From ANME-2 cluster archaeon (GTDB taxonomy: Archaea > Halobacteriota > Methanosarcinia > Methanosarcinales > Methanocomedenaceae), in the NCBI GenBank assembly GCA_019429385.1, contig JAHYIS010000020.1, forward strand, positions 1 through 44,405: DNA of 44,405 nucleotides, given 5' to 3'. Positions within the stretch are counted from its first letter, which is position 1; the number at the start of each line of letters is the position of its first letter. Below, piece after piece: positions 3,503-34,634 of this stretch. The position numbers and the translations under genes are program-made. The notes beneath the pieces were generated by a model. The model saw nothing but the letters and a program-made list of their open reading frames with translations, did no database searches and was not told where the DNA came from.

Positions 3503-4435
3503 TTATTTGTTTTTAGTCTCTCTTATCAACAATGACATAGTGTGTAGAATGATTCCGGTAAATGCTGAAAATGTTCCTATTAATGTTAACATTATCAAAA
3601 GCAAAGATGGTCCGAACGGCAACTGCCCTCCTGCTAAAAATAGTTTAATATAATGCAGCCCGATCCCAAATCCTGCCAGCATCAATGCTATTCCCGGCAC
3701 CGTAAAATAAAATAGCGGCCGATTCAGCTCCATATCATGCAGCACCTTCACCAGCACCCTCAACCCATGCCTCACCGGATTCGCAGTGGAACAATCAACA
3801 TCATACCGAACACTGATATCCACCTCTTTCACCCTCAGCTTTGCAAGAGCAGCATCCACCAGCATCTCGCTCTCTATCTCAAAACCGCTTTCCCTGAACC
3901 TGAAAGCTGGTATGGTATGTGCCGCAAAAGCACGAAAACCGCTCTGGCTATCGGTCACATCAAGCCCACTGCTAAAGTTCGTGGCCTTGTCCAGCACTTT
4001 CTGGCCCAGGCGGCGGTATCCAGGAGTATTCTTGCCGTGGCCGTTCATATAACGGCTGCCGTTCACAACATCTGCTTCCCCCTCCAGGATAGGAGCAATA
4101 AGTTTGGGTATTTCAGAAGGATGGTGCTGTCCGTCAGCATCCAATGTCACGATGATATCAGCCCCTTTGGCCGCTTTAAAACCACTCCTGAGCGCCGCAC
4201 CCTTCCCTCTGTTTATGGGATGCCGTATCACTTCGGCCCCGGCCAGTTCGGCTACCTCTGCGGTCCGGTCCGTACTACCGTCGTCGATAACAAGCACCCG
4301 GTCGACATACTGACGTGTGCGAAGGATCACGGAACCTATGCTGACCTCCTCATTGTAGGCGGAGAGGACGGCGGTTATGGTGGGCAGGTGGGCACCTCCG
4401 GGAAATGGGTTGGGTGAATATGGGTGGAGTACCAT
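3503..4435 (-). CDS. GT2 glycosyltransferase, polyprenyl-phosphate mannose/glucose synthase-like
   Basis: This 310-residue protein has a GT2 GT-A catalytic domain (about 17-240) and two C-terminal membrane helices (about 240-300). Visible motifs are AYNEE at the start of the fold, VIDDGSTDRT, NRGKGAALRSGF and the metal-binding TLDADGQHHP. This layout matches archaeal enzymes that transfer a hexose from a nucleotide sugar to dolichyl/polyprenyl phosphate. It sits 48 bp upstream of wecB in the same direction. No clear ribosome binding site precedes the ATG at 4435; the homologous part begins around residue 18, so a later start is possible. A decayed second copy of this gene lies just upstream at 4765-5130. 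Confidence 0.88.
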   Translation of the reverse strand: MVLHPYSPNPFPGGAHLPTITAVLSAYNEEVSIGSVILRTRQYVDRVLVIDDGSTDRTAEVAELAGAEVIRHPINRGKGAALRSGFKAAKGADIIVTLDADGQHHPSEIPKLIAPILEGEADVVNGSRYMNGHGKNTPGYRRLGQKVLDKATNFSSGLDVTDSQSGFRAFAAHTIPAFRFRESGFEIESEMLVDAALAKLRVKEVDISVRYDVDCSTANPVRHGLRVLVKVLHDMELNRPLFYFTVPGIALMLAGFGIGLHYIKLFLAGGQLPFGPSLLLIMLTLIGTFSAFTGIILHTMSLLIRETKNK

Positions 4436-4764: not shown

Positions 4765-5130
4765 CCAGCATGTCCCCTCCTAAAGCTATCAACGCGCCAA
4801 GTCTAGTAAAGGATAATAGCTGCTTGTTCAATCCCATATCAAAGAGCACCTTCGCCATCACCCCGAATCCATATCATACCGGATTGGCAAGAAAACGATC
4901 AATATCATACCGAACGCAAATATCAACCATCTTCTCTTGACTTATTAAGACCTGCATCTACCAGTATCTCGCTCCATAACTCAAAACCACGTTTCCTGAA
5001 TCTGAAAACTGGGTATTGAATATGCTGAAAAAAGCACACAAACCGTTCCTGGTTATCATAAAATCAAGCCTGAAGCTAGTATTTGTACCAACCAAAGTAC
5101 ATTCTTGCCCGGACATCGGTAGTTCCTGTA
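4765..5130 (-). pseudogene. Decayed second copy of the GT2 glycosyltransferase gene
   Basis: The DNA aligns over several hundred bases with the C-terminal half of the intact GT2 gene (its 3660-4045 part), in the same orientation. Translating the minus strand gives pieces such as RGFELWSEILVDAGL and VDICVRYDIDRFLANPV, which match the intact ESGFEIESEMLVDAAL and VDISVRYDVDCSTANPV. The copy has a frameshift between these two pieces and an in-frame TGA right after NPV, and its catalytic N-terminal half is gone. It is therefore a dead duplicate. The boundaries are approximate because the ends fade out. Confidence 0.82.
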
Positions 5131-10066: not shown

Positions 10067-10285
10067 ATGACAAAGGCTATAGAAGTTGTTTATGAGGATA
10101 ACGTTTTTAAGCCTATTGGCCCAGTTGAAGGTCTTAGGGAACATGAAAGGATGGTAGCGATTTTTTCTCGGCGTCCTTCCAAAAAAGGTTTGCGTGAAGT
10201 AGCTGGAACAATGACACATGACGAAGCTATGGCAATGCAGAAACTTATTGATGAGGAGTTCGAAAAAATTGAAGGCGAGTGGTAG
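10067..10285 (+). CDS. DUF104/AF2212-like antitoxin
   Basis: The 72-residue protein begins MTKAIEVVYEDNVFKPI, the typical start of the archaeal DUF104 antitoxins (a short beta-hairpin domain of the form 'yEnGvlkPl'), followed by a helical C-terminal part (HDEAMAMQKLIDEEFEKIEGEW) that would wrap the toxin. It is the first gene of a two-gene operon and its 3' end overlaps the PIN toxin gene, the usual arrangement for VapBC-type pairs. Confidence 0.85.
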   Translation: MTKAIEVVYEDNVFKPIGPVEGLREHERMVAIFSRRPSKKGLREVAGTMTHDEAMAMQKLIDEEFEKIEGEW

Positions 10286-10664
10286 GTTAGCTGTTGATAC
10301 TAACGCTGTAATCGCCTACAGAGAAGGTATTTCTGAAGTATGTACATTGATTGATGATGCAGACGTAATTATTTTACCAGTTACTGTTCTGGGTGAACTA
10401 CTTTATGGTGCTTTAAATAGTGCTAAAAAAGAACAGAATGAACATGTTATTCAACAATTTGCAGAGTATTCTCTTATCATGCAGGTTGATGAATCAGTTG
10501 CTAAACGTTACGCTGAAGTGCGTTTAAATCTTAAAAAAAACGGAACTCCAATTCCTGAAAATGACATATGGGTTGCTGCAGCATGTTTGGAGCTCGAAGT
10601 TCCACTTCTGACCCAGGATGGTCACTTTAAGTTTGTTGAAAGATTAGACATTTTTAACTGGTAA
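10269..10664 (+). CDS. vapC: PIN-domain toxin ribonuclease (VapC family)
   Basis: This is a 131-residue PIN nuclease, expected to cleave RNA when freed from its antitoxin. The acidic active-site residues are all there: VDTN near the N-terminus, the Glu of LGELLYGA, the Asp of ENDIWVAA and the Asp of LLTQDGHF. The start is a TTG at 10269, chosen because GAGGAG (10253-10258) sits ten bases upstream and the PIN fold begins immediately after; it overlaps the antitoxin by 17 bases. The active site is intact, so the toxin is probably functional. Confidence 0.87.
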   Translation: MKASGRLAVDTNAVIAYREGISEVCTLIDDADVIILPVTVLGELLYGALNSAKKEQNEHVIQQFAEYSLIMQVDESVAKRYAEVRLNLKKNGTPIPENDIWVAAACLELEVPLLTQDGHFKFVERLDIFNW

Positions 10665-10819: not shown

Positions 10820-11851
10820 ATGAAACTATGGGCCATCAGGGTACCCAGAAAACTGGCAGAGGATACACGAAGGCTGTTGCTGCAGGCAGGCAACATCCAC
10901 CCGGAAGCCCAGTTGCGCAGGGACAATGAATATATCCTTATTCCTGTGAACAGCAAACCTGACCCTGACGAACTGTTAGAACGAATCGGTTTAGAGACAG
11001 ATGATAATCTCACCATCATAGAAGCCGAATTTGAAACAAAACCGAAAAAACCATCACTCGAAGACATACTGGGCTTCACACCCACCTTTGACGTGGTTGG
11101 AGATATCGCCATCATTGACGCCGATGACCCTGACGCTCCCCGTATCGCCAGTGCATTGATGGAGTTTCGTAAAAGTCTCAAGGTGGTACTGGGGGCGGTA
11201 AGCCATGTTGAAGGCGAGTTCAGGACCCGGCAGTTTGTGGTACTGGCAGGTGAGGACAGAACCCATACCGTGCATAAGGAATACGGGTGCCGGTATAAGG
11301 TGGACCTTGCCGGAGCCTATTTTTCAGGCCGCCTGGGGAGCGAGCGCCAACGGGTGGCCGAAACGGTGAAACCGGGGCAGTGTGTAGTGGACCTGTTCGC
11401 AGGTGTCGGCCCTTTTAGCATACTTATCGGCAGGACCGTGCCCGGCGCCAGCGTGGTGGCCATTGATAAGAATCCAGTCGCTGTAGAGTTATTGAGGGAG
11501 AACATCCTGTTGAATAAAGTGAATAATGTGCGTGCGAGGGAAGATGATGCCAGGGATGCGGCCGCAAAGTTGGAACACCGGGCAGACCATATAATCATGA
11601 ACCTGCCCCAGTCTGCCAGGGAATTCCTGGACAGCGGAATACGTGTGGCCAGGGATGGGGGCATGGTGCATTTTTATGACATCACGCACGAGGATGATCT
11701 GTATCGAAGCTCCTGGGAATTGATACGGGGTGCTGCGGTGCGACAGGGGAGAGGGGTGGAGTGTGTTGAAAAGAGGATTGTGCGATCGTATGCACCGTAT
11801 CAATATAATGTGTGCATTGAGTTTCGGGTTACTGAAAATGAACAAATGTGA
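10820..11851 (+). CDS. trm5: tRNA (guanine37-N1)-methyltransferase Trm5
   Basis: The 343-residue enzyme methylates G37 of tRNAs using S-adenosylmethionine. It has an N-terminal D1-like domain (residues about 1-70), a middle FTPTFDVVGDIAII segment, and a class I methyltransferase domain with VVDLFAGVGPFSILIG (SAM site), VAIDKNP and the catalytic MNLPQSA. The length and layout fit archaeal Trm5. The last 30 codons and the following 40 bases are duplicated 2.7 kb downstream (14486-14609). Confidence 0.93.
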   Translation: MKLWAIRVPRKLAEDTRRLLLQAGNIHPEAQLRRDNEYILIPVNSKPDPDELLERIGLETDDNLTIIEAEFETKPKKPSLEDILGFTPTFDVVGDIAIIDADDPDAPRIASALMEFRKSLKVVLGAVSHVEGEFRTRQFVVLAGEDRTHTVHKEYGCRYKVDLAGAYFSGRLGSERQRVAETVKPGQCVVDLFAGVGPFSILIGRTVPGASVVAIDKNPVAVELLRENILLNKVNNVRAREDDARDAAAKLEHRADHIIMNLPQSAREFLDSGIRVARDGGMVHFYDITHEDDLYRSSWELIRGAAVRQGRGVECVEKRIVRSYAPYQYNVCIEFRVTENEQM

Positions 11852-11890
11852 TCATGATATCTCATGACTGGTTTATAATTTACTTTACAC
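11765..11890 (+). repeat. Direct repeat copy A (3' end of trm5)
   Basis: About 126 bases, covering the last codons and stop of trm5 and the first 40 bases beyond, recur at 14486-14609 in the same orientation. The core 11822-11872 is identical over 51 bases to 14541-14591; the flanks carry scattered changes. Confidence 0.93.
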
Positions 11891-12019
11891 CGCCATTGAC
11901 ATTATCAGTATATTGCATCTTTAATGGCTGACTGGAGGCTACAGGGTAAGAATGGATTTGAAGAACTGGAGGAATTACTCAGGCGAGAGTTGTATATGGG
12001 CTAAACAAATACCTTTTTT

Positions 12020-12469
12020 TTACCCATTTATAGTAATTATTGTGCTGCTTGAAGTGTTAAACCCGCCCCCCGTACGGACCATTGCAACAACCCTGTACGT
12101 CCCTTCCTTTTGTGGTCCCACATCCTCCAAACCAGTGTGGGTATATATTTTAGAGGGATCCCAGATTGTATGATGAGGTAGGCCAAAATACCCTTGCGGC
12201 CATATATATTCAGGACCTTTAATTTCATTCCAAAAAACTAATGTCTCATTGTGGTCGTTGATTTTATATATCTCCCATTTTGGAACCCCAGCCAGAAGCG
12301 TTATTCCGCTGTTTTTAATATTGATGGTTATTTTTTCACCGACCTCATATTCTTTTTTATCGGTATAAACGCTGAGAACTCCCATACTAAAGAATCCTAA
12401 TACCGTTGCAATGATATATAAAATAACAATTGAAATGCTGATTGCAATAGCAATATTTTTTTTATTCAT
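12020..12469 (-). CDS. Secreted/membrane-anchored BsuPI-like beta-sandwich protein
   Basis: The 149-residue protein has an N-terminal hydrophobic anchor (about residues 8-28) and an extracellular domain with a LSVYTDKKEYEVGEKITINI start, then a WEIYKI strand and a closing GTYRVVAMVRTG. This resembles the intracellular proteinase inhibitor (BsuPI) / bacterial Ig-like folds found on archaeal cell surfaces; a precise function cannot be given. The start at 12469 is preferred because GAGGTG precedes it by seven bases. It is the last gene of a three-gene minus-strand cluster of exported proteins. Confidence 0.65.
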   Translation of the reverse strand: MNKKNIAIAISISIVILYIIATVLGFFSMGVLSVYTDKKEYEVGEKITINIKNSGITLLAGVPKWEIYKINDHNETLVFWNEIKGPEYIWPQGYFGLPHHTIWDPSKIYTHTGLEDVGPQKEGTYRVVAMVRTGGGFNTSSSTIITING

Positions 12470-12504
12470 ACTCACTCACCTCAAAAAATAAAAAATTGGA
12501 GGTT

Positions 12505-13371
12505 TTATTTGCACCTGTCCCCTCCAATTACTTCTCCTGTATGACCATCCATCCAAGCCTGCACTATGGCACCATCTCCCCTTGTTTCATCTTCAAATGT
12601 TATAATCCATGCTAAGGTATAGCTGCCGGTAGGATTTGTATTGCGCGTATTAGCCCAATCATTTGGTTTTCTGATTTCCAGAGATGAACTCATTAGTTTC
12701 GAATCATGTGGGAGTCCGTAGCTCTTATTCAGGAATTCATTTGCAGCCTTGATCGCATCTTCTCTGATAATTTCGGGGGTTGTATCGATGGCAGCCATGC
12801 TCGATTCATCGGCAATTTTCTCAACAAATGAGATTAATTCGCCGGTATTTGCATCGATTCTTACAGAAATAAAATTTCCGTATACCGGCACTCCATTCTT
12901 CTGCTGTGTCCATACAATGGCATACATTTTTTCATGTGGATATTCGATCAGCTCTACAGAAGCCTGGAGAACTTCCAACGAATCGATATCAATTGCATAT
13001 TCTACCAGTTGAGTTTTTGCCATCATAAGTGCTTTATTCGATGTTATCGATGTTTTATTGCCAGCTCTAGAAGAGTTAAAATAACCTATCGTCTGCCCGG
13101 CATTTGCATCTATATCAATGATGGTCACATCTTTTCCATCAATATAGTCAAACTCCCAATATATATTCGTGTCATCGCTCCGTAAGTTTATCTGTGATTT
13201 GTCTACAGGAAGCGATTTTGCTGCAATATTACTTGCTTGTTCCTTAGTAATCGGGTTTTTCACATTGTTAAAATTGAGGCCATCCATACCAGAATTCTGA
13301 CTTGCCATTGCAATCGCGATTAATCCGATAACAATTAAGCATATTGATACTATTACAAACTTATTTTTCAT
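12505..13371 (-). CDS. Exported PepSY-domain protein
   Basis: This 288-residue protein has a signal peptide or anchor (VIVSICLIVIGLIAIAMA) and two or more PepSY-like units of the form 'ITKEQASNIA...WEFDYI...DIDANAGQTIGY' and 'VPVYGNFISVRIDANTGELISFV', closing with AWMDGHTGEVIGG. PepSY domains accompany extracellular proteases and are thought to inhibit or modulate them. GAGGTG precedes the ATG. The neighbours are a caspase-like peptidase gene (upstream) and a BsuPI-like gene (downstream), so a protease/inhibitor set is plausible. Confidence 0.78.
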   Translation of the reverse strand: MKNKFVIVSICLIVIGLIAIAMASQNSGMDGLNFNNVKNPITKEQASNIAAKSLPVDKSQINLRSDDTNIYWEFDYIDGKDVTIIDIDANAGQTIGYFNSSRAGNKTSITSNKALMMAKTQLVEYAIDIDSLEVLQASVELIEYPHEKMYAIVWTQQKNGVPVYGNFISVRIDANTGELISFVEKIADESSMAAIDTTPEIIREDAIKAANEFLNKSYGLPHDSKLMSSSLEIRKPNDWANTRNTNPTGSYTLAWIITFEDETRGDGAIVQAWMDGHTGEVIGGDRCK

Positions 13372-13386
13372 TTATCCCACCTCTTC

Positions 13387-14004
13387 TTAAATTGTTATGC
13401 TATCGTCACCATAAATGGTGTAATCGCTTCCAATAGTTGTTCGCTGACCTGCCCATAGAGCTGAATTGTGTACTGTATTTCCATGTATCAGTAAATATCC
13501 GAATTCATCTGTGAAATTTTCTGATTCACCGATATTTACAGTTCTGGTGAATCCTATGTAAGCCGTCGTTCCTTGATTTATGAAACCTTCGCTTACATCA
13601 TACATTCCCCAATGCCGTACTGAGGATTTGCAGGCATCAGCATATGCCAGTTTTATTGTGCTTGATGGTACATCGCCACCCGCAATATATGATAAAGGAT
13701 TGTAAGGCTCGTCAAAATACAATCGTGTTGCACCTACTCCACTTAAATCTCCGCCATGACCTGAAAACATCCATATGGTATCAGATGGTATTCTCCCAAG
13801 AACATTACTTTTACTATCTTGGTGATTATATACAGTCGCGTATCCTTTCTGACTCATATAATTGTTCCAGATATTGGCATCTGTTTCTTAATCCATTTGC
13901 TTATCTGAATCTGCGATTGCCGCAGCAGCAATACCTGTTGCCGAGAATGTAAGCATAACGATAAAGCAAATAGATGCTAACATTTTCAATTTATTTCGTT
14001 TCAT
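13387..14004 (-). pseudogene. Exported caspase-like (clan CD) protein interrupted by an in-frame TAA
   Basis: A perfect ribosome binding site (GGAGGTATATA) precedes an ATG at 14004 that opens a signal peptide (MKRNKLKMLASICF, ending GIAAAAIA). After 38 codons the frame hits TAA (13888-13890), then continues without further stops in the same frame to 13387. The downstream part looks like the core of a clan CD cysteine peptidase: SDTIWMFSGHGGD supplies a His and KLAYADACKSS a Cys, as in caspase/gingipain-like folds. As written, the product would be only the signal peptide, so this is most likely a recent nonsense mutation, or a short downstream protein starting at 13857 without signal peptide. 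The whole is about 204 codons, short for such peptidases. Confidence 0.72.
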
Positions 14005-14067
14005 TATATACCTCCATCTATATTTTTCCTCTATCGAAGGCGAAACCAGCAAGCTTTAAATAACTTC

Positions 14068-14107
14068 AAATCCCACCAATACTATGCCTTCGGGTATAGT
14101 GGGATTT
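14068..14107. promoter_or_regulatory. Inverted repeat upstream of the caspase-like gene
   Basis: The arms AAATCCC and GGGATTT flank an inner stem ACTATGCC/GGGTATAGT with a three-base loop. The structure lies 60-100 bases before the ATG at 14004, so it is either an operator or a 5'-leader hairpin. Confidence 0.5.
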
Positions 14108-14247
14108 CAGCCTATTTCTTAATCTCAACATGTCGAAACTCCCACATCTTATATTTATTGCACGAAATTATTTTATTTGTGCAATGATGAGAATAATACA
14201 CAACTGTATATAAAACCATTGCAATTATCTTAATATTCGGTGGCAAG

Positions 14248-14271
14248 ATATATATATATATATATATATAA
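14248..14271. repeat. (AT)12 microsatellite
   Basis: Twenty-four bases of alternating A and T. It lies in the gene-free part of the islet bounded by the trm5 repeats. Confidence 0.9.
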
Positions 14272-14485
14272 TTAGAAATGTTTTTAATAATTCACGGAAA
14301 TTATTTTATCGTACCATACATCCAGTATCCATTCAACTATAGGAAATCAGAGTACACGATGCTGGATTATTCAGAACTGTGTGATATGATTCCGCAGCTA
14401 TAGTGTTACTATAGAGAACATCCGGCTGAATCAGGCATATCATGTCACTATAAACATGCCTCATTTAGCAATGAATGGGTGGTGG

Positions 14486-14609
14486 GTGGAAAAAGGATTG
14501 TGCGATCGTATGAACATACCAATATAACATGTGCATTGAATTTCGGGTTACTGAAAATGAACAAATGTGATCATGATATCTCATGACTGGTAATTATTTT
14601 ACTTTACAC
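14486..14609 (+). pseudogene. trm5 3'-end fragment (direct repeat copy B)
   Basis: This fragment duplicates the last 30 codons of trm5 and the 40 bases after its stop. It reads GTG GAA AAA AGG ATT GTG CGA like the parent, then a one-base deletion shifts the frame. The 51 bases at 14541-14591 are identical to 11822-11872. No upstream part of trm5 accompanies it. It ends inside the 3' end of the small membrane protein gene on the other strand. Confidence 0.9.
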
Positions 14610-29292: not shown

Positions 29293-30579
29293 ATGTTAGA
29301 ACAATCGATACGTTTGTGGAATCCCTGGTGGGCAGAAAAAAAGATGCCTCAGAATCTTACAGGAATAAAACGAGATGTAACAGATTCGATAATAACATCC
29401 CTTGATGCACCACATATAAAAGACGTTATCGGGGTCAGGCGTTCGGGTAAGACCACGGTACTCTACCAGACAGCAGCATACCTGATGGACATTGGCGTGG
29501 CACCAGAGCATATCGTGTTCCTGAATTTCGATGACCCGGCAATAAATGCTGCACCGCTTGATGATATATTTAGCAGCATCTACAAGATCAATCTAGAAAT
29601 CTCGCATATATTCCTTGATGAGATTCAGCAAAAAAAAGGTTGGGAGCGTTGGGTAAGAACCTTATATGACACAAAACGATTCAGCCAGATATTCCTGTCC
29701 GGGTCATCATCAAGTCTGCTTACACAAGATCTGGGCCGTGTGTTGTCAGGCAGACACATCACATTTAACATAATGCCGTTCTCTTTTCGTGAATACCTGA
29801 AAAAAAATGGATGGGAAAATTTTGAAACAGAATATCTAATCTACAAGAGAAAAGAGATACTATATTACCAGAAAAAATACCTTGAAGATGGTGGTTTTCC
29901 CGAAACTATCGGGATGAATGAGTTCAATCAAAAAAAGATACTGACATCTCTTTATGGTGATATAATTGCAAGGGATATCCTGGCAAGGTTCGGTGCATCC
30001 TATGAAGTTGCGGCGAAGATTTGTCTGTTAATGATCACAAATTCAACACGTGAGTACTCATTCAATAGTGTGGCAAAGGCGACCCATATAGCACTTGAAA
30101 CAGCCGAAAAATATATTGGATATCTCAAAGAATCACTGCTGATAAATGATCTGTCTGTATTTTCCTATAAACTCAAAAGCCAGTTCAATCAAAATAAAAA
30201 GACATATGCAGTGGATACAGGGCTCAGGAATGCCGTATCGTTCAGGATTACCTCGGACCTGGGCAAACTTGCCGAGAATGCAGTATTCCTTGAACATAAA
30301 AGACGTAGCAATGAAGTATATTACTGGAAAAGCAAAGGTGGCTATGAAGTTGATTTTGTGCAAAAGATAGGCCAGAATGTACAGGTATTATTGCAGGTTT
30401 CATGGGATGTGAGAAACGATAAGACCCGCAAACGTGAAGAGCGATCACTCTGTCATGCATGTGAAGAATTCGGAATTGATATCGCATTGATATTGACAGA
30501 GGATACTGAAGATATTGTAGAACGAAATGGAGTGAAGATTACTTATTATCCACTCTGGAAATGGCTGCTTGATATCTAA
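29293..30579 (+). CDS. DUF4143-type AAA+ ATPase (1)
   Basis: The 428-residue protein belongs to the large prokaryotic AAA/DUF4143 ATPase family. It has Walker A GVRRSGKTT near residue 48, Walker B HIFLDEIQ, a sensor-like FLSGSSSSLL, an arginine-rich LSGRHITF, and the C-terminal DUF4143 domain with YWKSKGGYEVDFVQ, which resembles a PD-(D/E)XK nuclease-like core. The function is unknown for the family; members spread between genomes and are common in archaea. A palindromic operator precedes it, and the leader is very short. Confidence 0.85.
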   Translation: MLEQSIRLWNPWWAEKKMPQNLTGIKRDVTDSIITSLDAPHIKDVIGVRRSGKTTVLYQTAAYLMDIGVAPEHIVFLNFDDPAINAAPLDDIFSSIYKINLEISHIFLDEIQQKKGWERWVRTLYDTKRFSQIFLSGSSSSLLTQDLGRVLSGRHITFNIMPFSFREYLKKNGWENFETEYLIYKRKEILYYQKKYLEDGGFPETIGMNEFNQKKILTSLYGDIIARDILARFGASYEVAAKICLLMITNSTREYSFNSVAKATHIALETAEKYIGYLKESLLINDLSVFSYKLKSQFNQNKKTYAVDTGLRNAVSFRITSDLGKLAENAVFLEHKRRSNEVYYWKSKGGYEVDFVQKIGQNVQVLLQVSWDVRNDKTRKREERSLCHACEEFGIDIALILTEDTEDIVERNGVKITYYPLWKWLLDI

Positions 30580-30626: not shown

Positions 30627-30974
30627 TCATGCCCGGAGCATGGTCAACAACATCTTGAACTGCTGCTTTGCCTGCAGAGCATGAGGAACATTCGCGGGCA
30701 TTACTACCATCTGGCCGGACGTTGCATTTACGTTCTCGCCGCCGATAGTAAGTTCGACCTCTCCATCCAGTACCAGTACCACTGCATCAAAAGGGGCCGA
30801 ATGTTCGCTGAGCCCCTGGCCCGCATCAAAGGCGAACAGGGTGATAGTACCTGCCTTGTTCTCGATAAGGGTGCGGCTGACCACTGAATCTGCAGAGTAT
30901 TCTACGGAATCGGCAAGGTCGAGAGGTTTTGCTGCAGGTATGCGGGTTCTTGGTTCAAGATTAATGTCCTTCAT
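30627..30974 (-). CDS. Small cupin-domain protein
   Basis: The 115-residue protein has the single cupin barrel: GQGLSEHSAPFDAVVLVLDGEVEL (motif 1, with His and Glu-like ligands) and MPANVPHALQA (motif 2, with the metal His). Proteins of this size may bind a small molecule or metal and often serve as sensors; no substrate is evident. The ATG at 30974 is used because GGAG lies eight bases upstream; a GTG at 30983 is also in frame. It lies between the two ATPase genes on the opposite strand. Confidence 0.82.
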   Translation of the reverse strand: MKDINLEPRTRIPAAKPLDLADSVEYSADSVVSRTLIENKAGTITLFAFDAGQGLSEHSAPFDAVVLVLDGEVELTIGGENVNATSGQMVVMPANVPHALQAKQQFKMLLTMLRA

Positions 30975-31012
30975 GGGAGCCACTCCTGAACATCTGATAA
31001 GAGTACATTTAT

Positions 31013-31153
31013 TTAAGGTTGGTGTTCTACTTTAGCCCGCCCTATCTTCTCAGCCAGGTTCGGCAGCACTTCCTTGCGCAATCCGCCAACGAATTTGATG
31101 CTGTCCCTATCAGGCAGGAGAAGGTAGATACAATAAGCGGTCTTGATTGTCAT
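31013..31153 (-). pseudogene. Fragment of the recJ-like gene 3' end
   Basis: The minus strand here encodes DSIKFVGGLRKEVLPNLAEK and a few more residues, matching the last 28 residues of the DHH protein encoded at 32511-34634 (GSIKFVGGLRKEVLAKLAEK...). The DNA match is 31031-31106 against 32523-32598, about 75 bases at close to 90% identity. The upstream part of the gene is absent. The second ATPase gene lies between the fragment and the intact gene. Confidence 0.88.
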
Positions 31154-31192
31154 GTCAAATAAATCATAAATTGGTCGTTCATATAAGTACAA

Positions 31193-31225
31193 ATTTATAT
31201 ATGTTTAGTCTTATATACGAGACTA
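31193..31225 (+). promoter_or_regulatory. TATA box and dyad at the start of ATPase 2
   Basis: TTTATATATG (31194-31203) is a good TATA box lying about 25-30 bases before the ATG at 31225, which suggests a leaderless or nearly leaderless transcript. The dyad TAGTCT (31206-31211) / AGACTA (31220-31225) flanks the predicted transcription start and may be an operator. Confidence 0.6.
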
Positions 31226-32499
31226 TGACTAAAATAGAATTATTCAAATATATAATTAAAGAGTTCCATGAATTACGATTACCTGAGACTTATAATCGAA
31301 CCCTTTCAATACCCGAAACACAAAAAATAATCAGCCTTATAGGCCCAAGAAGAGTTGGAAAAACATTTTACTTTTATCAGTTACTAAATAACCTGATTAA
31401 AAACGGCATAAACCCGAGCAGGATAGTATACATCAACTTTGAAGATGACAGGATCCTGCCATTAAACGTAAAAGATTTAAATTCGATATTAGAAGCTTAT
31501 TATGAGCTTTATCCGGAAAATACTGACGAAATGCTTTACCTTTTCTTTGATGAGATACAGAATATCAACAACTGGGAATTGTTCGTAAGAAGGGTGTACG
31601 ATAAGAAAAATACAAGGATGTATATTACTGGTTCAAGCTCAAAATTGCTCAGTAAAGAAATTGCAACAAGCCTGAGGGGTAGAACTCTTTCATATTACCT
31701 GTTCCCGTTAAGTTTTGAAGAGTTCTTAAAATTCAATCAGGTCACATTAAACAAGGATTTTGAATATACAAATGCGAGATTCAAGGTTAAGCAACTATTC
31801 AATAAATATCTTTATAGTGGTGGTTTTCCTGAAGTGGTGCTGGAGGCTGAAGAACTTACACAGGATATTCTTCAAAACTATTTTGAAATGTTTATCTACA
31901 GGGACCTTGTTGAAAGATTTTCCATAAGGAATACATCATTGTTGAAAAGCCTTGTTAAATTCTTAATAACAAATATAGGTACGACTTTTAGTGTAAATTC
32001 TTATTATAATAATATCAAACAGGAAATCCCAGTTGGAAAAGATACATTGCTGGAATACCTATCATATCTTGAAGATATCAACCTGATATATCTGGTTCCC
32101 ATATTCAGCTATTCACTAAAAAAACAGCAGGTAAATCCCCGCAAAGTTTATTGTATCGACAATGGGCTACGAAATGCCGTATCGTTCATGTTTTCAAAAG
32201 ATGAAGGCAGATTAGCCGAAAACCTGGCATTCCTTGAGCTTAAAAGAAGAGGCAAAGAGCCATATTACTGGAAAAAGAATGGCGAAATTGATTTTATCAT
32301 AAAGGATAGGGACAGTTCATTGACCGCCATAAATGTTTCATATACAGATGAAATTGATGACAGGGAGACTAAAGTACTGCTGGAATTCGCAGACGAATTT
32401 TCTCCCAAGATCAAGGAATTGATTTTATTAACAAAAGACCTGGAGAATACCGACGGCATGATTAAATTCATACCTTTGTGGAAATGGCTTATTCACTAA
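31225..32499 (+). CDS. DUF4143-type AAA+ ATPase (2)
   Basis: The 424-residue protein is a second, distant member of the family of the ATPase at 29293. It has Walker A LIGPRRVGKTFYF, Walker B LFFDEIQN, sensor MYITGSSSKLL, SLRGRTLSYYLFPLSFEEF, and the DUF4143 end with YWKKNGEIDFIIK and the shared PLWKWLIH terminus. The two ATPases are clearly related but not recent duplicates. I start it at 31225; earlier starts (31147 or 31201) would overlap the TATA box. It is flanked by direct repeats of the recJ-like gene end. Confidence 0.85.
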   Translation: MTKIELFKYIIKEFHELRLPETYNRTLSIPETQKIISLIGPRRVGKTFYFYQLLNNLIKNGINPSRIVYINFEDDRILPLNVKDLNSILEAYYELYPENTDEMLYLFFDEIQNINNWELFVRRVYDKKNTRMYITGSSSKLLSKEIATSLRGRTLSYYLFPLSFEEFLKFNQVTLNKDFEYTNARFKVKQLFNKYLYSGGFPEVVLEAEELTQDILQNYFEMFIYRDLVERFSIRNTSLLKSLVKFLITNIGTTFSVNSYYNNIKQEIPVGKDTLLEYLSYLEDINLIYLVPIFSYSLKKQQVNPRKVYCIDNGLRNAVSFMFSKDEGRLAENLAFLELKRRGKEPYYWKKNGEIDFIIKDRDSSLTAINVSYTDEIDDRETKVLLEFADEFSPKIKELILLTKDLENTDGMIKFIPLWKWLIH

Positions 32500-32510
32500 T
32501 GCAAAATCCA

Positions 32511-34634
32511 TCAAAATTCGGTTTTAGCCCGTCCTATCTTCTCAGCCAGTTTCGCCAGCACTTCCTTGCGCAATCCGCCAACGAACTTAATACTGCCTAC
32601 AACCAGGTGCCCGCCACCATTGATACTGGCTTCGGGTATCTCCTCATGCAACTCCCGCACCATTTGCGGGATGTTCATAAGCACACCCCTGCTGCGAAGC
32701 ACAACAAAATCCGGGCCGTACCCCAACGTGACAATTGGCTTATCAGGATACTTATGGCATAATGTATCATGCACCTCACCACTGGTCTTACCCGGTGGCG
32801 GGAATGTGAACTTATGAGCAAAATTCTCCACATCCAGAACATGCAGGAGTGCCCCGCTCGGCAACTCCCGTGATTTCACCGATGGCAGCGATGCTTCCAG
32901 CTGGGTCTTGATAGCATCGTTAGCCTGCTTCACCAAAAGAGGCACCAATTCCCGATGCCGCTTCAGATTACCCATATTTAAAATGTCATAGGTAATACCC
33001 CTGCCTTCACTGAAACGCAACCAGAACGCTTCATAATCCAGTGCCAGAGCCATATCCTTCAAATCGCTCAAACGGTATCGCGACGCAACCAGTTCAATAT
33101 ACTGTGCAGCCTCCGGTGCTTCCGAGCGGTCGCCTACAGCCGAAACCGCAGGAAGGTGGCGTATCTCTTCTGTCACCTCAGGATTTATCATCCTGGCGAT
33201 CTCGGTACCCAGCATGCCCGTAGTTATCCCGAAATCCCCGCCCGCATGGGCCGGGTTCACATGGGCCAGCAGGTACTGGTCAACAATGTCATCGGGATGA
33301 TGATGGTCCACAACCACCATATCCATACCATAGACCTTTGCCTGTAGCATTGCGGGCACATCCTCCTCAGTAGAGCCATTATCCATCAACAGGACCAGTG
33401 GCATTTTCTGGCCATGTCTTGCATTATCATCCAGTGCGAACGATATATCCCTGGTAATATCCACCATCTCGTAGAACGGTGCCTTGCTGGGTGAGCGCCG
33501 GTAAAAATGATATCCTGCATCAGTCCCGCCGACCTCATTTATGAGTGGTAGCACCGCTTTCTCAATAGCAATGGCTGAAGTGATACCATCAGCATCGGCA
33601 TGGTGGCGTAGCACGATAGGCCTTGAATGGAATATTGCCTTGCGTATTTCCTTGGCAACCTGGCGCATCTTGGGCTTCAACGCCTCAAGGATCGGGCTCT
33701 TAACCAGGAATTCAACATCATGAGGCTCAGACCGTGTGTCCAGCGCATTCTCTATCTCGTCCCTGATAGCAGCCGAATCCGCACCCCACATCTGCCTTAT
33801 TTCACGTATCTCAATCTGCAGTTCATTGTTCCGGGTATTCAGTTCACCTAAAACCTTAACTATCATATCGGATTCAATTTCAGGATACGAGCGCTGCCCT
33901 GCTTTTTCGAACGCAGCACATGGCACCGTACCCGTTTCATCAGCCAGCGTGAATATGGTCGGGCCGCCGGTCTGCTTTATCTGGATGACCTCACCCGAAA
34001 TATGCACCAGTTTACTGATATGGCCTCTAAGAGCAGATATCTGGGTGCGGGGTATATCCTTCTCTACCTCGATTATCTGGTACTCCGGGAGGAGTACCGG
34101 CACAAGGTCAATGTTCCCGTTTGAAGCAATGTTCTTCACCTGTACAAAGATAGTCTCACCCACGTCCGGGGTCCTGGTCAGGTGCTTCTGGTGCGCAAGG
34201 CCACGCGTGCGGGAGTTCAGGTTCACAAAGGCACCGAAATTGGCAAGGCTGTCCACCACCCCCTCATACGTCATATCGACCTCAAGGTCTGAGGTATCAC
34301 AGGCAGGACTCAATTTTCCGACCAGCGGTTTTTTGGCACACGAAGCACACATATCCCCTTTCATATCACCGCCAAGTGGCTGCCCGCATATACGACAGGT
34401 TATCATCTCACCCCGGCCGCCGCAGACTTTGCATTTTGTCTCCACTCTAACGGTACCGGACCCGCCGCACGTGTGGCAAACGGACCCACCTTTGAGCAGG
34501 CTGCCCAGGTCTTTCTCGGTCATCCTGGTCAGGTCAATAGTTTTGGGTTTTCCAGAACCCTTGCATCCAGGACATTGTTGCTGCGAAACATCAGTAATTC
34601 CTGTGCCATCGCAAGCCTTGCATTGTTCAGCCAT
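32511..34634 (-). CDS. RecJ-like DHH phosphoesterase with DnaJ-type zinc fingers, S1 and OB domains
   Basis: The 707-residue protein begins with DnaJ-like CxxCxGxG zinc motifs (CKACDGTG, CPGCKGSG, CHTCGGSG, CKVCGGRG), then a CRICGQ/CASC ribbon, an S1-like domain (about 120-180), an OB-fold (about 205-290), and the DHH domain from about 340 (HHADADGITSAI, VLLMDNGS, VVVDHHHPDD) ending in a DHHA1-type NGGGH motif near 680. The euryarchaeal family acts on single-stranded nucleic acid; RecJ-like exonuclease roles in replication or repair are known for relatives. Its last 28 codons are duplicated at 31013-31153. Confidence 0.9.
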   Translation of the reverse strand: MAEQCKACDGTGITDVSQQQCPGCKGSGKPKTIDLTRMTEKDLGSLLKGGSVCHTCGGSGTVRVETKCKVCGGRGEMITCRICGQPLGGDMKGDMCASCAKKPLVGKLSPACDTSDLEVDMTYEGVVDSLANFGAFVNLNSRTRGLAHQKHLTRTPDVGETIFVQVKNIASNGNIDLVPVLLPEYQIIEVEKDIPRTQISALRGHISKLVHISGEVIQIKQTGGPTIFTLADETGTVPCAAFEKAGQRSYPEIESDMIVKVLGELNTRNNELQIEIREIRQMWGADSAAIRDEIENALDTRSEPHDVEFLVKSPILEALKPKMRQVAKEIRKAIFHSRPIVLRHHADADGITSAIAIEKAVLPLINEVGGTDAGYHFYRRSPSKAPFYEMVDITRDISFALDDNARHGQKMPLVLLMDNGSTEEDVPAMLQAKVYGMDMVVVDHHHPDDIVDQYLLAHVNPAHAGGDFGITTGMLGTEIARMINPEVTEEIRHLPAVSAVGDRSEAPEAAQYIELVASRYRLSDLKDMALALDYEAFWLRFSEGRGITYDILNMGNLKRHRELVPLLVKQANDAIKTQLEASLPSVKSRELPSGALLHVLDVENFAHKFTFPPPGKTSGEVHDTLCHKYPDKPIVTLGYGPDFVVLRSRGVLMNIPQMVRELHEEIPEASINGGGHLVVGSIKFVGGLRKEVLAKLAEKIGRAKTEF

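Follow-up and report, generated by a model that had tools for sequence, protein, structure and literature searches.

The T6SS immunity-gene arrays of Vibrio cholerae are formed by homology-facilitated illegitimate recombination (HFIR), and the same work discusses Rhs orphan modules and likens module displacement to integron gene-cassette arrays (Kirchberger 2017, PMC5361080). Integron arrays consist of single-gene cassettes, often toxin-antitoxin genes, which are stacked behind a fixed point with a repeated element between them. In Escherichia coli K-12, prophage e14 lies in icd with a 165-bp duplication that carries 12 nucleotide changes (PMC11148124). Here we describe a recJ-like locus in the window, a 44,405-nt contig of an ANME-2 cluster archaeon (JAHYIS010000020.1), at which each of these systems finds a partial counterpart. 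As in the T6SS and Rhs arrays, a new module stands beside an intact anchor, with the old 3′ end and the old module pushed downstream (recJ, serS and methylase arrays), and as in the T6SS arrays the units stack, one end appears to be anchored by homology and no integrase is invoked. In the T6SS arrays the toxin locus itself serves as anchor, and only one or a few such loci are involved. In this archaeon, by contrast, anchoring is by many housekeeping genes that are unrelated to one another, and toxin-antitoxin and candidate defence genes make up the cargo. Set against HFIR, switch points on the homologous side are variable, and the edges on the other side are recurrent within a target rather than variable. 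The likeness to integrons lies in cassettes of a single gene, often a toxin-antitoxin one, that pile up behind a fixed point with repeats between them; unlike in integrons, an integrase is lacking, host-gene tails serve as the repeats and differ from locus to locus, and many loci are involved instead of one.

RESULTS

The recJ-like gene carries a new tail and its original 3′ end is displaced

A repeat search of the window gave a direct repeat of 73 nt at 92% identity (31031–31103 and 32523–32595) on either side of the ATPase2 gene, in agreement with a first-pass annotation that had reported about 75 bases at about 90% identity bracketing this gene (Table 1). The copy at 31031–31103 encodes, in frame, the last 26 amino acids of the recJ-like protein at 88% identity (tblastn; E 1e-5 in the whole genome, E 2.6e-9 in a self-search), and these E-values together with the kept reading frame indicate that the match is not due to chance. 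The intact gene, which is conserved throughout the order, is convergent with ATPase2, with 11 nt between their stop codons. In a relative of the same genus (G007), recJ lacks the insert, and both the tail of the fragment and its cupin neighbour are present there. The fragment is the original 3′ end of the gene, and the tail of the intact recJ arrived with the cargo. The first-pass annotation had named, as a finding that would refute its reading, a fragment belonging to a full recJ paralogue lost in this lineage; this origin is rejected, as the ancestral tail lies beside its ancestral neighbour.

Across several genomes, the intact recJ tail tracks the neighbouring cargo (ATPase2, an acylphosphatase-like gene, ATPase3 or cupin), and the 3′ flank of the new tail is common to the recJ of G014 and the fragment of G012, each of which adjoins ATPase2. 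The cargo-linked identity is limited to the final ∼15–80 nt of the gene, and a longer donor tract in recJ, sought by pairwise identities and sliding windows, was not found beyond the last ∼80 nt. The switch points differ (G001 versus G002), as is expected for crossovers rather than for a single att core. From the alignments we infer that the fragment formerly started at about codon 610, as it does in relatives, and was later shortened by an internal deletion; the sequence TTCTCCTGCCTGATAGG (sense of recJ), which adjoins the fragment within 31104–31224, is likely to be the remnant of this edge, again as inferred from alignment.

Table 1. Features of the recJ-like and trm5 loci (positions in the window)
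Feature	Position	Strand	Evidence and remarks
trm5, second host gene of the window	10820–11851	+	Pfam
trm5 insert: PepSY-domain gene (12505–13371) and two ORFs without Pfam match	11891–14476	-	Pfam
Displaced trm5 3′ end with original flank	14477–14609	+	Flank matches trm5 of G004
ATPase1, second AAA_14 + DUF4143 gene, beyond cupin	29293–30579	+	Pfam; present in G007 and G006 too
Cupin gene, which originally adjoined the recJ 3′ end	30627–30983	-	Pfam; 29 nt after recJ in G007
Displaced original recJ 3′ end: repeat copy 2 (31031–31103), then VEHQP and stop	31013–31103	-	In frame; tail and neighbour match the G007 empty site
Distal cassette end, ATPase2 upstream region	31104–31224	.	Upstream region common to G014 and G015; alignment with G015, G014 and G001
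ATPase2, cargo, AAA_14 + DUF4143, 424 aa	31225–32499	+	Pfam; PADLOC candidate PDC-S01; AlphaFold pLDDT 84
Intact recJ-like gene, host of the duplicated tail	32511–34634	-	707 aa; DnaJ-type zinc fingers, S1, OB fold, DHH (Pfam)
New recJ tail, ending in codons TEF and stop; ATPase2 3′ flank follows immediately	32511–32522	-	Flank comparison among relatives
Repeat copy 1, within intact recJ	32523–32595	-	Repeat search

The ATPase2 cargo is a candidate defence gene

The start of ATPase2 is likely the ATG at 31225, because homologues begin MTK.EMFKYIIKEFHE. The PADLOC profile PDC-S01 covers the protein over its full length (E 4.9e-113, residues 23–423 of 424), which makes it a member of a family that is itself only a candidate for defence, anti-phage activity being inferred. 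Comparison with PDB sequences yielded no more than P-loop matches and short matches to helicases, and the fold comparison only an AAA+ core resembling Orc1/Cdc6 and RFC. In DUF4143 proteins a P-loop ATPase is fused to a C-terminal region that bears PD-(D/E)XK-like motifs and is taken to be a nuclease. The one paper found to name DUF4143 deals with another topic, and further literature searches returned nothing or general papers only. No repeats were found at the flanks of ATPase1.

The same anatomy recurs at unrelated gene 3′ ends

The pattern had been claimed for trm5 as well, and this also held: a 137-nt match at 88% identity (11754–11890 versus 14477–14609; core of 93 nt at 91%) runs 39 nt past the stop codon. 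The trm5 insert is missing in G002, where trm5 abuts a LysE gene. From these two cases the first-pass annotation had suggested a shared mechanism of gene gain at gene 3′ ends, to be checked by a genome-wide search for duplicated 3′ ends and by the empty site in relatives, and to be refuted if no other cases existed in the genome. The search, run over 2.23 of 2.40 Mb (contigs C52–C70 left out) at ≥60% identity, gave eight 3′ gene fragments downstream of their own gene, seven of them outside a repeat cluster, and no 5′ (N-terminal) fragment upstream of its own gene. The anatomy is found at at least five more loci (a T2SSE-type ATPase with HicBA, serS with PIN, PEBP with UPF0175 and PIN-like genes, dapB with HicBA, and a dockerin-type gene) and, beyond those, in arrays behind a DNA methylase and an HD gene. 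Gene gain at 3′ ends is thus supported well past two cases and the refutation fails, the biochemical mechanism remaining only inferred; that the fragment is the old tail, that the intact tail came with the cargo, that units stack and that the cargo is biased had all gone unseen. The anchors are varied (recJ-like, trm5, serS, dapB, T2SSE-type ATPase, PEBP, HD gene and DNA methylase; the identity of serS was assigned by eye), and tail arrays are present behind recJ, serS, the HD gene and the DNA methylase. Besides the recJ empty site in G007, relatives show empty sites or ancestral flanks for dapB, serS and trm5, and at these four genes the displaced fragment bears the ancestral flank in 4/4.

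Cassette cargo includes HicBA, PIN/UPF0175 and DUF4143 genes. Direct repeats flank 12/28 of the HicA, PIN and DUF4143 genes versus 69/1950 other genes (p 1.8e-10), and the bias persists with three repeat clusters removed (7/22 versus 51/1919, p 1.8e-6). The left edges of the fragments recur: the ATPase2 and acylphosphatase units both begin at about recJ nt 1830, two methylase fragments begin at one same site, and four HD-gene fragments have a common edge and a ∼40-nt leader, while in the C3 array whole repeat units are copied together with the leader. In the PEBP repeats the last ∼190 nt are 100% identical versus ∼75% upstream, and such near-identical stretches inside repeats suggest that gene conversion between tails is ongoing.

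No tyrosine recombinase above cut-off and no resolvase in the genome

No tyrosine recombinase (PF00589) was found above cut-off in the genome, with one partial match below it, and no resolvase (PF00239); the genome is 100% complete, and control genomes give matches in the same searches. With no tyrosine recombinase above the cut-off, an integron integrase is lacking, and the repeats that separate the units are gene tails. Rfam gave no match across the window or at five gene-end loci. A ∼50-nt hairpin repeat after the serS and dapB stops was considered as an attC-like site and dropped, since it is found behind other genes too.

DISCUSSION

Tail-anchored recombination as the proposed mechanism

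The anatomy, the direction of displacement, the cargo-linked tails, the arrays, the cargo bias and the absence of an integrase are shown. With moderate confidence we favour the reading that ATPase2 belongs to a large set of cassettes gained at the 3′ ends of housekeeping genes via tail-anchored recombination; its recombination steps, the biochemistry of insertion and the addiction argument are inferred, without an observed excised circle or insertion event. In this proposal, incoming DNA from a relative would bring a recJ end together with an accessory gene, and homologous recombination within the recJ end would join it to the resident gene, leaving recJ intact with a new tail. The other end of the cassette would be connected on the upstream side of the resident tail, and this old tail would remain as the displaced fragment. 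A cassette so formed, with a gene-tail copy at each side, could then be moved by ordinary homologous recombination between tails to the empty sites of relatives, swapped, stacked into arrays or cleanly deleted. Since repeat-flanked DNA should be easily lost and the surviving cargo is mostly of toxin-antitoxin or defence type, we propose that addictive cargo would persist because its loss is punished.

Several observations weigh against this model. The left edges of the fragments show a regularity that random end-joining would not give, and that would be explained equally well by a site-specific step or by the copying of units together with the leader. The missing 5′-end counterparts might reflect selection, not mechanism. 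Some cargo (PepSY and acylphosphatase-like genes) is not known to be addictive, and the DUF4143 genes are themselves seldom flanked by direct repeats (1/7 in this genome).

Alternative explanations

The strongest rival, although unlikely, is site-specific integration of the e14/icd type, in which an element carrying the target 3′ end beside att integrates at a fixed core, restores the gene with its own copy and pushes the old end aside, while the integrase acts in trans or has been lost. In its favour, left edges are fixed within a target even with different cargo, only 3′ ends are affected, and the anatomy is that of e14 in icd: at recJ, dapB, serS and trm5 a replacement 3′ end restores the target and the old end is displaced, with similar length and divergence. 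However, prophage e14 brings its own integrase and has a single target, whereas the units here are of one or two genes without integrase, at many unrelated targets and in stacked arrays. The lack of a recombinase in a complete genome, with positive controls, and the varying switch points near the recJ stop also speak against it.

Intragenomic tandem duplication of the 3′ part of a gene, after which unrelated genes entered between the two copies and the second one decayed, is likewise improbable. It predicts the original flank on the second copy, as observed, and the C3 array does copy whole repeat units including the leader, but it leaves unexplained why the tail and flank of the intact gene are common to other genomes with the same cargo, why the same cassette stands behind the same gene across different genera, and the cargo bias.

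A transposition event that duplicated a long target site, or mobilisation by the ATPase itself, is very unlikely. The P-loop ATPase and nuclease-like motifs of DUF4143 proteins would suit a mobiliser, but HicBA or PIN cargo shows the same anatomy, and the ATPase is rejected in this role owing to the absence of a flanking repeat from 25 of the 31 DUF4143 loci of the order with both flanks readable. A transposon test (terminal inverted repeats with a short target duplication) is unmet, as no inverted repeats sought at the cassette ends were obvious and the duplications, from 73 to ∼800 nt, are far above those of transposons.

An assembly artefact, in which repeats of a metagenome-assembled genome were collapsed or joined chimerically, is all but excluded: nearly all pattern-bearing genomes are draft assemblies and some fragments lie at contig ends, but the present case is internal to a contig of 44 kb, the same units with diverged sequences occur in independent assemblies from different projects, and repeat copies that differ by 3–20% are not the product of collapse.

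Implications

If tail-anchored recombination is correct, it would mean that small defence and toxin-antitoxin genes can enter and accumulate in uncultured archaeal chromosomes without an integrase, and the displaced gene tail would be a sequence mark that identifies each gain and reveals the original state. It would also offer a testable reason for the frequency of toxin-antitoxin genes in repeat-flanked DNA, namely the instability of such inserts, which leaves only the addictive ones in place. A bolder reading, which is no more than possible, is that ANME-2 archaea have an integron-like, integrase-free cassette system in which the tails of housekeeping genes are portable recombination sites, so that toxin-antitoxin and defence units may stack at many genomic places, locked in by lethal loss. 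In the host, a methane-oxidising ANME-2 archaeon, toxin-antitoxin and candidate anti-virus genes lie directly behind ordinary genes, each enclosed by a broken second copy of the tail of that gene.

The displaced recJ tail

The repeat search of the window placed ATPase2 between direct copies of 73 nt with 92% identity, which upholds the first-pass annotation's claim of ~75 bases at ~90% around this gene; the stop codons of ATPase2 and recJ lie 11 nt apart. A check of relatives for the empty site, proposed in that annotation, found it in G007 (same genus), which has no insert and carries the cupin gene 29 nt past the recJ stop, followed by ATPase1 (the second AAA_14+DUF4143 gene) and polB; the window has these same neighbours. 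The recJ protein ends in VEHQP in both G007 and the window fragment and in TEF in the window's intact recJ, whose 3′ flank (AAGCCATTTCCACAAAGG...) is that of the G014 recJ and of the G012 recJ fragment, both of which adjoin ATPase2. In G012, G010, G002 and G001 the recJ tail reads AEVxMG, with an intact or decayed acylphosphatase-like gene after it. Thus, the last recJ codons and their flank are tied to the adjacent cargo, and the older tail has been shifted downstream; the window fragment is the old recJ tail.

PADLOC assigns the DUF4143 ATPases to candidate family PDC-S01 (ATPase2, E 4.9e-113). In its DUF4143 C-terminal part, at residues 345-372, ATPase2 retains the EIDF motif and reads INVSY where some paralogues read IEVKYGK; its nuclease site, if ever present, is therefore probably degenerate, as inferred from sequence alone.

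Locations of features in the window and in its genome, G000 (C, contigs; L, loci)
Feature	Location	Strand	Remark
recJ-like gene, intact	window 32511-34634	minus	holds repeat copy 32523-32595
recJ 3′ fragment (repeat copy)	window 31031-31103	minus	in-frame last 26 codons
ATPase2, AAA_14+DUF4143	window 31225-32499	plus	sole gene between copies
PIN-domain gene	window 10218-10664		directly upstream of trm5; no flanking repeats
73% direct repeat	window 3702-3966 / 4806-5070		part of gene 3503-4435, just upstream of gene
DNA methylase array (L235)	C30:4302-11979		
HD-domain gene fragments (L175, L176)	C3:97500-107500		
Second trm5 3′ part, broken (L255)	C54:3648-4274		aa 119-336, ~70-74% identity; separate from window copy
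HicBA between 137-nt direct repeats	C1:54642-56568		88% identity
Hairpin repeat AAAACGCTATATACAGGCCCGGTACATTTGTACGGGGTATACCGGTGACT	C1:26936, C1:134676, C16:35864, C17:20523, C25:7715, others; also L303, L284, L288, L306		

recJ arrays in relatives

The genome of the window, a 100%-complete assembly of 2.40 Mb in 70 contigs, is from the Methanosarcinales, and the closest recJ among named relatives is that of ANME-2 cluster archaea (e.g. B4-03, B4-08, HMMV-459A3, HR1); from the relatives' names we take its family to be ANME-2a/b and the neighbouring family ANME-2c. Gene orders are recJ, acylphosphatase-like gene, recJ fragment (~96 aa), ATPase2 in G012; recJ, remnant of the acylphosphatase-like gene, recJ fragment and a flank resembling that of ATPase3 in G010; ATPase2, recJ fragment, ATPase3 in G015; and recJ, ATPase3, cupin, ATPase1 in G006. 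The order agrees between genomes, as last-in-nearest stacking with losses would predict. In the neighbouring family, G043 carries a displaced recJ 3′ fragment ~1 kb downstream of recJ (94% identity), and others occur in G032, G058, G055, G020, G036 and G028, as well as in one Methanothrix (L093); none was found in the other 30 searched genomes of the order. Some of these fragments sit at contig ends. Two genes adjoining recJ or its fragment in relatives match the HerA and BrxHI-like models of PADLOC.

The same anatomy at other genes

Same-strand fragments within 12 kb of each protein's gene were sought across 51 contigs of G000 (2.23 Mb, 2117 ORFs). At ≥60% identity, no N-terminal fragment lies upstream, against eight C-terminal fragments downstream (seven if the C3 repeat cluster is left out). 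The shared pattern that the first-pass annotation had drawn from recJ and trm5 alone thus extends to further genes. Host genes (cargo in brackets) are a T2SSE-type ATPase (HicB/HicA), serS (small ORF and PIN), PEBP (UPF0175 and a PIN-like protein), dapB (HicB/HicA), a long dockerin-type gene (ORF of unknown family and acylphosphatase), trm5 (PepSY) and recJ (DUF4143); the UPF0175 partner matches PADLOC PDC-S70. Fragment flanks are ancestral for dapB (as in G004, G007 and G002), serS and trm5 (both as in G004), and the G002 trm5 directly abuts LysE. Stacks of serS fragments occur in relatives (three fragments in G012, two in G014); their cargo is HicBA, PIN, DUF4143 or PDDEXK-like.

The methylase array runs methylase, PIN, fragment (95%), PIN and DUF4258, fragment (88%), NTP_transf_2/HepT; both fragments are long, have a common left edge and separate toxin-antitoxin-type cassettes. 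On C3, HicBA, a DUF4143 gene, and a DUF6036 nucleotidyltransferase together with its winged-helix partner sit among HD-gene fragments, most of which have one left edge and a ~40-nt leader in common. Some of these fragments lie upstream of the fullest copy and are not accounted for by simple stacking.

Genes for HicA, PIN or DUF4143 lie between direct repeats in 12/28 cases versus 69/1950 other genes (assembled G000 contigs; odds ratio 20, p 1.8e-10), and in 7/22 versus 51/1919 with the C3, C30 and C7 clusters left out (p 1.8e-6). Shares range from 5/7 for HicA to 1/7 for DUF4143. Since not every gene represents an independent event, the p-values are only indicative.

Several further repeats were observed. 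The 73% window repeat is probably a decayed paralogue, with no open gene copy there. The ORF adjoining the C1 HicBA is, by eye and without a profile, what we take to be an IS200/IS605-type transposase. At L329 (G047, family code of Candidatus Methanoperedens genomes), the last 257 nt of a sensor-kinase gene recur at 75% across a DUF4143 gene; the pattern may conceivably reach another family, or these may be kinase paralogues. The ~50-nt hairpin repeat has ~11 copies in G000 and no Rfam match. Most copies follow a gene on its sense strand, some of them just 1-50 nt past the stop codon.

Discussion

Serial displacement leaving orphan 3′ ends, via homology-facilitated illegitimate recombination, was proposed for Vibrio cholerae T6SS arrays and likened to Rhs loci (PMC5361080), and in e14 at icd the gene end is replaced and the old one left as a displaced fragment (165-bp duplication, 12 changes; PMC11148124). 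Our loci resemble both precedents. The literature searched, subscription journals mostly excluded, yielded no account of toxin-antitoxin cassettes set between the duplicated tails of numerous housekeeping genes, and none from ANME-2 either. We therefore rate the pattern a variant on a known phenomenon, in which such cassettes at many housekeeping-gene tails, and in ANME-2, are probably new.

As to mechanism, inverted repeats are not obvious at the cassette ends, and the start of the recJ sequence linked to acylphosphatase-like cargo varies, G001 resembling the other genus over the ~80 nt before the stop and G002 in the last codons only; homologous recombination in the gene tail is thus favoured. 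A site-specific mechanism, though unlikely, is kept in play mainly because left edges recur: at ~nt 1830 of recJ with two different cargos, at nt 168-174 of the methylase in two units, and at one edge with the common ~40-nt leader in four HD-gene units. Against it, profile searches of G000 found no resolvase and a single sub-threshold tyrosine recombinase match, whereas control genomes gave matches. Either copying of units together with their leader or a preferred break site would account for the recurrent edges. Several edges lie within C-rich stretches (TTCCCGCCGCCGGG, CGCCCCCGCCGC); no core sequence common to the edges of all target genes was established.

Under homologous recombination, tail-tail exchange would also excise cassettes cleanly, and G007 may have become empty in this way or stayed empty. 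Repeat copies seem likely to convert each other, an inference from the PEBP pair, whose last ~190 nt are identical and whose preceding part is ~75% identical. In such an unstable, repeat-flanked setting, addictive cargo would be what survives.
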